The notes beneath the pieces are model-generated. The model searched no databases and had not been told where the DNA came from. It saw only the letters and a list, made by a program, of their open reading frames with translations. The position numbers were made by a program, and so were the translations under genes. A stretch of 32,351 nucleotides of DNA from Clostridiales bacterium (lineage in GTDB: Bacteria > Bacillota > Clostridia > Lachnospirales > Lachnospiraceae): positions 1-32,351 of the forward strand of contig JAQXLR010000179.1 in the NCBI GenBank assembly GCA_029012225.1, read 5' to 3'. Positions 27,344-27,414 of the stretch are shown one piece after another. Numbering within the stretch: position 1 is the stretch's first letter; every line of letters begins with the position of its first letter.

Positions 27344-27414
27344 TTGCGGACGAGGGAATCGAACCCCAACCTTCGACTTAGGACGCCGATATGCTGCCGT
27401 TACACCAATCCGCC
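27344..27414 (-). tRNA. tRNA with CCT (CCU) anticodon; formally tRNA-Arg, with initiator-like acceptor end
   Basis: GGCGGATTGGTGTAACGGCAGCATATCGGCGTCCTAAGTCGAAGGTTGGGGTTCGATTCCCTCGTCCGCAA folds as a cloverleaf: acceptor 2-7/66-71 paired with G1xA72 mismatch, D-arm, anticodon stem TCGGC/GTCGA with loop GTCCTAA, T-loop TTCGATT, A73; CCA not encoded. Confidence 0.85.

Follow-up and report, generated by a model that had tools for sequence, protein, structure and literature searches.

Initiator tRNA-fMet of bacteria, including the tRNA-fMet(CAU) forms carried by phages, combines an unpaired 1:72 position with G2:C71, C3:G70 and A73. The tRNA class described here shares these features, often adds A11:U24 and G30:C40, and has CAU forms in the same genomic slot of related phages; it differs in its anticodon, CCU (or UAU), in an imperfect triplet of G:C pairs and in the AGG (or AUA) start codons that go with it. 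Engineered orthogonal initiator tRNAs, with anticodon/start codon pairs CUA/UAG, CUU/AAG, UAC/GUA and others (PMC8576571, PMC13232202), likewise join an initiator body and a changed anticodon to a matching non-AUG start codon; unlike these laboratory constructs, the CCU tRNA is natural and phage-encoded, and it appears to serve many late genes. Stop-codon-recoded phages (e.g. genetic code 15; PMC9523058) also deviate from the code of the host; there stop codons are altered, whereas here it is the start codon. Ordinary phage tRNA-Arg(CCU) has the same anticodon; however, in nearly all cases it has a paired 1:72, A20 and A37, and it shows no link to start codons. To our knowledge, the only cases in which initiation at a non-AUG codon goes with a matching initiator tRNA are engineered ones; no natural precedent for an AGG/CCU initiator pair was found in the openly accessible literature.

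The window (the whole stretch of 32,351 nt that was analysed) contains a prophage with all its late genes on the minus strand, and a tRNA with anticodon CCU sits among them. We consider that this tRNA and AGG very probably (probability of about 0.88) form a natural, phage-encoded initiator tRNA/start codon pair dedicated to late-gene translation. The features concerned are as follows.

20617–22659, minus strand: tail tape-measure gene, starting with AGG (PHROG 6900 / 58)
22657–22659, minus strand: AGG start codon of the tape-measure gene (Shine–Dalgarno GGAGG at 22669–22673; homologs begin MADGSL where this gene has AGG)
25691–26689, minus strand: major capsid gene, starting with ATG here and with AGG in the close relative L139/L468
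26702–27292, minus strand: head scaffold gene with a normal ATG start, directly downstream of the tRNA (PHROG 194)
27344–27414, minus strand: initiator-like tRNA with anticodon CCU, reading AGG (cloverleaf, G1xA72, G2:C71, C3:G70, A73; class comparison)
27419–27440, minus strand: hairpin GGCCGGTCTTAAGCGGACCGGC directly 5′ of the tRNA (seen in the sequence)
27486–27647, minus strand: small KTR-type gene, rich in cysteine, with its terminator ahead of the tRNA (no PHROG match)
27965–29632, minus strand: minor head protein gene, starting with AGG (PHROG 581, E 8e-91)
29630–29632, minus strand: AGG start codon of the minor head gene (Shine–Dalgarno AAGGCGGTGG at 29638–29647)
29674–31074, minus strand: portal protein gene, starting with AGG (PHROG 533, E 3.6e-67)
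31072–31074, minus strand: AGG start codon of the portal gene (Shine–Dalgarno AGGAG at 31085–31089)

The host part of the window carries a lysine riboswitch (7147–7321, minus strand), a TPP riboswitch (13481–13587, minus strand) and an ldcC-type RNA (SpF59; 2033–2084, minus strand), each preceding matching biosynthesis or decarboxylase genes.

A preliminary description had placed a tRNA with anticodon CCU between the terminator of the KTR-type gene and the scaffold gene, and both points were borne out: ARAGORN called a tRNA with this anticodon at 27344–27414 on the minus strand (isotype Arg), and Rfam RF00005 matched the same interval, scoring 37.9 bits against a gathering score of 29. Direct reading of the acceptor end gave G1xA72, G2:C71, C3:G70, G4:C69, G5:C68 and A73; the proposed identity with tRNA-fMet at positions 2–5, 68–72 and A73 held against the host tRNA-fMet of the same genome (L036; CGCGGGA...UCCCGCAA), with which positions 2–5 and 68–73 are identical. 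The two anticodon arms also read as described, UCGGC-GUCCUAA-GUCGA (G29:C41, G30:U40, C31:G39) in the window tRNA and UCGGG-CUCAUAA-CCCGA in the host tRNA-fMet.

By the identity rules for initiator tRNAs summarised in PMC8576571, the window tRNA lacks a Watson–Crick 1:72 pair (the feature for formyltransferase recognition) and has both G2:C71 and C3:G70. It departs from them in having U11:A24 instead of A11:U24, the pairs G:C, G:U and C:G instead of three consecutive G:C pairs at 29–31/39–41, and anticodon CCU, with AGG at start positions, instead of CAU and AUG. Other irregularities are a U49xC65 mismatch, a 4-nt variable region and C20 in place of A20; its Rfam score, U49xC65, G30:U40 and U11:A24 make the window copy a weak representative. 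Thermodynamic folding of this tRNA alone (z −0.53) carries no information on the matter. A second CCU tRNA of the same genome, at 1043–1114 within the interval 1042–1115 of another, phage-like contig (L056), is nearly identical, with one extra G; it is flanked by a capsid-like gene and by a gene encoding a KTR-type zinc ribbon, with a hairpin directly 5′. Hairpins of varying sequence also stand directly upstream of the CCU tRNAs of L137, L139, L140, L142 and L145; the CAU relatives have a terminator in that place.

In relatives of the scaffold and capsid proteins collected from viral and bacterial genomes, the slot of the window tRNA holds an initiator-type tRNA-Met(CAU) in L004, L006, L007 and L062, and a CCU tRNA in L137, L139, L140, L142, L144, L145/L146 and L147; the other relatives have no tRNA there. 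A single base separates the anticodon loop of L004 (CUCAUUA) from that of the common CCU form (CUCCUUA), and the unpaired 1:72 is kept in the syntenic relatives through different combinations (GxA, AxG, GxG, AxA). By the standard of the preliminary description, an initiator-like character would be refuted if the tRNA fell clearly among elongator tRNA-Arg(CCU) and close relatives had 1:72 paired; we saw the opposite. Initiator tRNAs also seem to be decaying in this slot: L015 and L017 have, upstream of the scaffold gene, degenerate tRNA-like elements with a small or missing D arm and a preserved CAUAA-type loop. In L060 (3271–3345) the same slot is occupied by a tRNA-like element in which a loop of 15 nt replaces the anticodon loop; the starts of that phage are normal, and no AGG starts were found among them. 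In the initiator-like tRNAs of L207 and L260 the anticodon loop has 8 nt (CUCGAUAA) and the anticodon is apparently UAC, possibly representing further start codon variants; the start codons of L260 gave no usable signal. The tRNAs of L501–L503 proved to be CAU.

The late genes of the window show where an AGG-reading initiator might act, a point absent from the preliminary description. At its start the tape-measure ORF contains no ATG, GTG or TTG and reads CGGAGGATAAATAAA-AGG-GCTGACGGA, encoding R-ADGSLIFDTKLD; the AGG of the minor head gene is immediately preceded by an in-frame TAA (29633–29635); and the GTG at 31083 is not the portal start, since it lies 1 nt past the Shine–Dalgarno sequence, which is too close. 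The tape measure has AGG in all CCU relatives of this group that align at the start, while tRNA-less relatives have ATG, TTG or GTG. In L140, L142 and L156 AGG must be the first codon of this gene, because the preceding codon is an in-frame stop; frameshifting from an upstream gene was excluded wherever such a stop sits directly before AGG.

Across 18 tRNA-carrying phages, which include quite different late-gene types but share ancestry and are not fully independent, 77 AGG-start genes were found, by a simple heuristic requiring a strong Shine–Dalgarno sequence and no canonical start either earlier or nearby (one of the four calls in the window, a 159-aa ORF with ATG at 24523, is false and is included in the count); 14 of them directly follow an in-frame stop. 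Judging from location and sequence, most of them encode terminase, portal, protease, capsid, major tail or tape-measure proteins. The mean Shine–Dalgarno spacing was 7.96 for AGG and 7.58 for ATG in the same phages. Among ORFs without a canonical start, AGG occurred 58 times in the tRNA-carrying phages, the next codon being AAA with 17, as against 0 times in the comparison set, where the only enriched codon was ATA, coming from a phage with a UAU tRNA. On the non-late side, upstream of the tRNA, eight tRNA-carrying phages had 0 AGG starts vs 113 canonical ones. Two incomplete genomes stand as exceptions: L147/L473 has the tRNA, yet the 10.9 kb available contain no AGG start (the tape-measure gene begins with ATG, and the portal region is off the contig), and L536 has a tape measure starting with AGG, with no tRNA found in this draft genome, whose contig is cut off upstream.

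The public prediction for the window tape measure (P0001) begins inside the gene. Likewise, 45 of the best 120 tape-measure homologs (P0003, P0027 and similar) are predicted to start at least 10 residues inside the gene, a hint that non-canonical starts may go beyond the phages considered here.

The start codon of the orthologous portal gene follows the anticodon of the tRNA, as one would expect of a dedicated pair. At the aligned position we saw AGG in 8/8 phages with a CCU tRNA, ATG in 7/7 tRNA-less and 4/4 CAU-tRNA relatives (11/11), and ATA in 2/2 contigs (L498 and L225) of one kind of phage with a UAU tRNA. The latter was picked out because of the excess of ATA in the control set; its tRNA is initiator-like (anticodon UAU, G1xA72, G2:C71, C3:G70, A11:U24, A73), and its portal, capsid and tape-measure genes all start with ATA. 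The starts of the capsid and major tail genes alternate between ATG and AGG among close relatives (the window and L468), the major capsid protein of the window being 94.7% identical to that of L139/L468 over the first 150 aa.

This covariation bears on the reading that comes next in plausibility, itself improbable: that the host initiator tRNA recognises the AGG starts, which are real, as weak near-cognates, the phage tRNA having some other role. AGG differs from AUG by one base, and initiation at many non-AUG codons has been measured in Escherichia coli (according to a paper cited within PMC13232202). However, all 11 relatives with a CAU tRNA or none lack AGG at the aligned position of the portal gene, the codon becomes ATA exactly where the anticodon is UAU, and portal and capsid proteins are needed in large amounts.

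Could the tRNA be an ordinary elongator tRNA-Arg(CCU) that decodes AGG inside phage genes? The anticodon and the ARAGORN isotype call would agree with such codon compensation, and the host genome (82.6% complete) showed no further CCU tRNA beyond the second, prophage-type copy. We compared 23 distinct tRNAs of the CCU class, obtained by a scan for the CUCCUUA-loop pattern and from genome loci, with 82 ordinary CUCCUAA tRNA-Arg(CCU) from the same viral collection. The phages carrying the class are scattered, and for several of its members the closest BLAST matches in named phages are annotated as tRNA-Met. Position 1:72 is unpaired in 22/23 members of the class (AxA, GxA, CxA, CxU, UxU, AxG, GxG) vs 4/82 controls, a difference that is not due to chance (Fisher P about 1e-17); the window tRNA sides with the class, the pair being present in the other 78/82 controls. 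G2:C71 together with C3:G70 occurs in 22/23 vs 5/82, A73 in 23/23 vs 54/82 and A11:U24 in 15/23 vs 1/82. In the anticodon stem of the class G30:C40 is present in 21/23 and G29:C41 in 16/23; G31:C39 never occurs, base 39 being fixed as G by the search pattern. The reservations that the preliminary description had raised itself, U11:A24 and the imperfect G:C triplet, stand for the window copy; A11:U24 and G30:C40 are present in most of the class, although the full G:C triplet is not kept there either, which counts against the initiator reading. Its suggestion of an initiator-like character gains support from the class-wide unpaired 1:72 and from the true CAU initiator tRNAs in the slot of relatives.

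A20 is an identity base for arginyl-tRNA synthetase. It is present in the three host tRNA-Arg that were read (3/3) and in 75/82 controls vs 2/23 of the class, the window tRNA having C20; most members of the class also have U37. Codon compensation was rejected, as internal use of AGG does not differ, being 8.5 per 1000 codons with the tRNA and 8.8 without. Since the elongator reading also leaves AGG at start positions unexplained, we regard it as very improbable.

It is hardly credible that the CUCCUUA loop, identical to the 3′ tail sequence of 16S rRNA and with a U37 unusual in a decoding tRNA, makes the molecule an anti-Shine–Dalgarno mimic, a tRNA-like RNA regulating translation without decoding: this leaves the covariation unexplained and was rejected because the variants with A37 (GUCCUAA in the window; CUCCUAA in L352, where the portal gene starts with AGG) and the UAU variant (CUUAUUA, no anti-Shine–Dalgarno) also match their start codons. 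Equally hard to sustain as an independent explanation is a counter-defence tRNA, a replacement initiator resisting anticodon nucleases that cleave the tRNA-fMet of the host: an altered anticodon loop does allow phage tRNAs to evade such nucleases (PMC10264068) and the same slot holds CAU initiators in relatives, but a CCU tRNA could not replace tRNA-fMet at AUG and makes sense only with AGG starts. Counter-defence may rather be the selective reason for an AGG system.

Under the preferred reading, a dedicated initiator tRNA/start codon pair, the acceptor end would retain the features that mark a tRNA as an initiator for methionyl-tRNA formyltransferase and IF2, and the CCU anticodon would put the ribosomal P site on AGG. 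The tRNA would be charged and formylated, and initiation at AGG would require it. What the sequences show is an initiator-type tRNA class, AGG at start positions, the matching of start codon and anticodon, and the confinement of AGG starts to late genes. AGG would stand for AUG behind a normal Shine–Dalgarno sequence in the portal, minor head and tape-measure genes of the window and, in relatives, also in terminase, protease, capsid and major tail genes. These genes would be translated efficiently only after transcription of the late operon, which carries the tRNA; a sister phage would do likewise with a UAU anticodon and AUA as start codon. The amino acid carried by the tRNA might be Arg, Met or another one; the missing A20 speaks against efficient charging with Arg, and the altered anticodon against efficient charging with Met. 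One could speculate that U37, in most members of the class, prevents an elongator-like modification of the tRNA. Since CAU forms still occupy the slot, the system likely originated by capture of an initiator tRNA, which would have been followed by a one-base change of the anticodon and matching changes of start codons.

There are, in all likelihood, phages with private initiation codes, in which a CCU or UAU initiator tRNA goes with AGG or AUA starts on virion and packaging genes, possibly with a non-methionine N-terminus, and in which late genes need the initiator supplied by the phage. The benefit would lie in control of late genes or in independence from the host initiator tRNA; whether private initiators serve late-gene timing or escape from attack on the host initiator tRNA is now a directly testable question. 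Structural genes of such phages would be cut short or overlooked by gene callers, as with the window tape measure, and the pairs would provide synthetic biology with ready-made orthogonal initiator tRNA/start codon combinations. If true, this would be a natural and recurrent departure of phages from the standard code, at start instead of stop codons.
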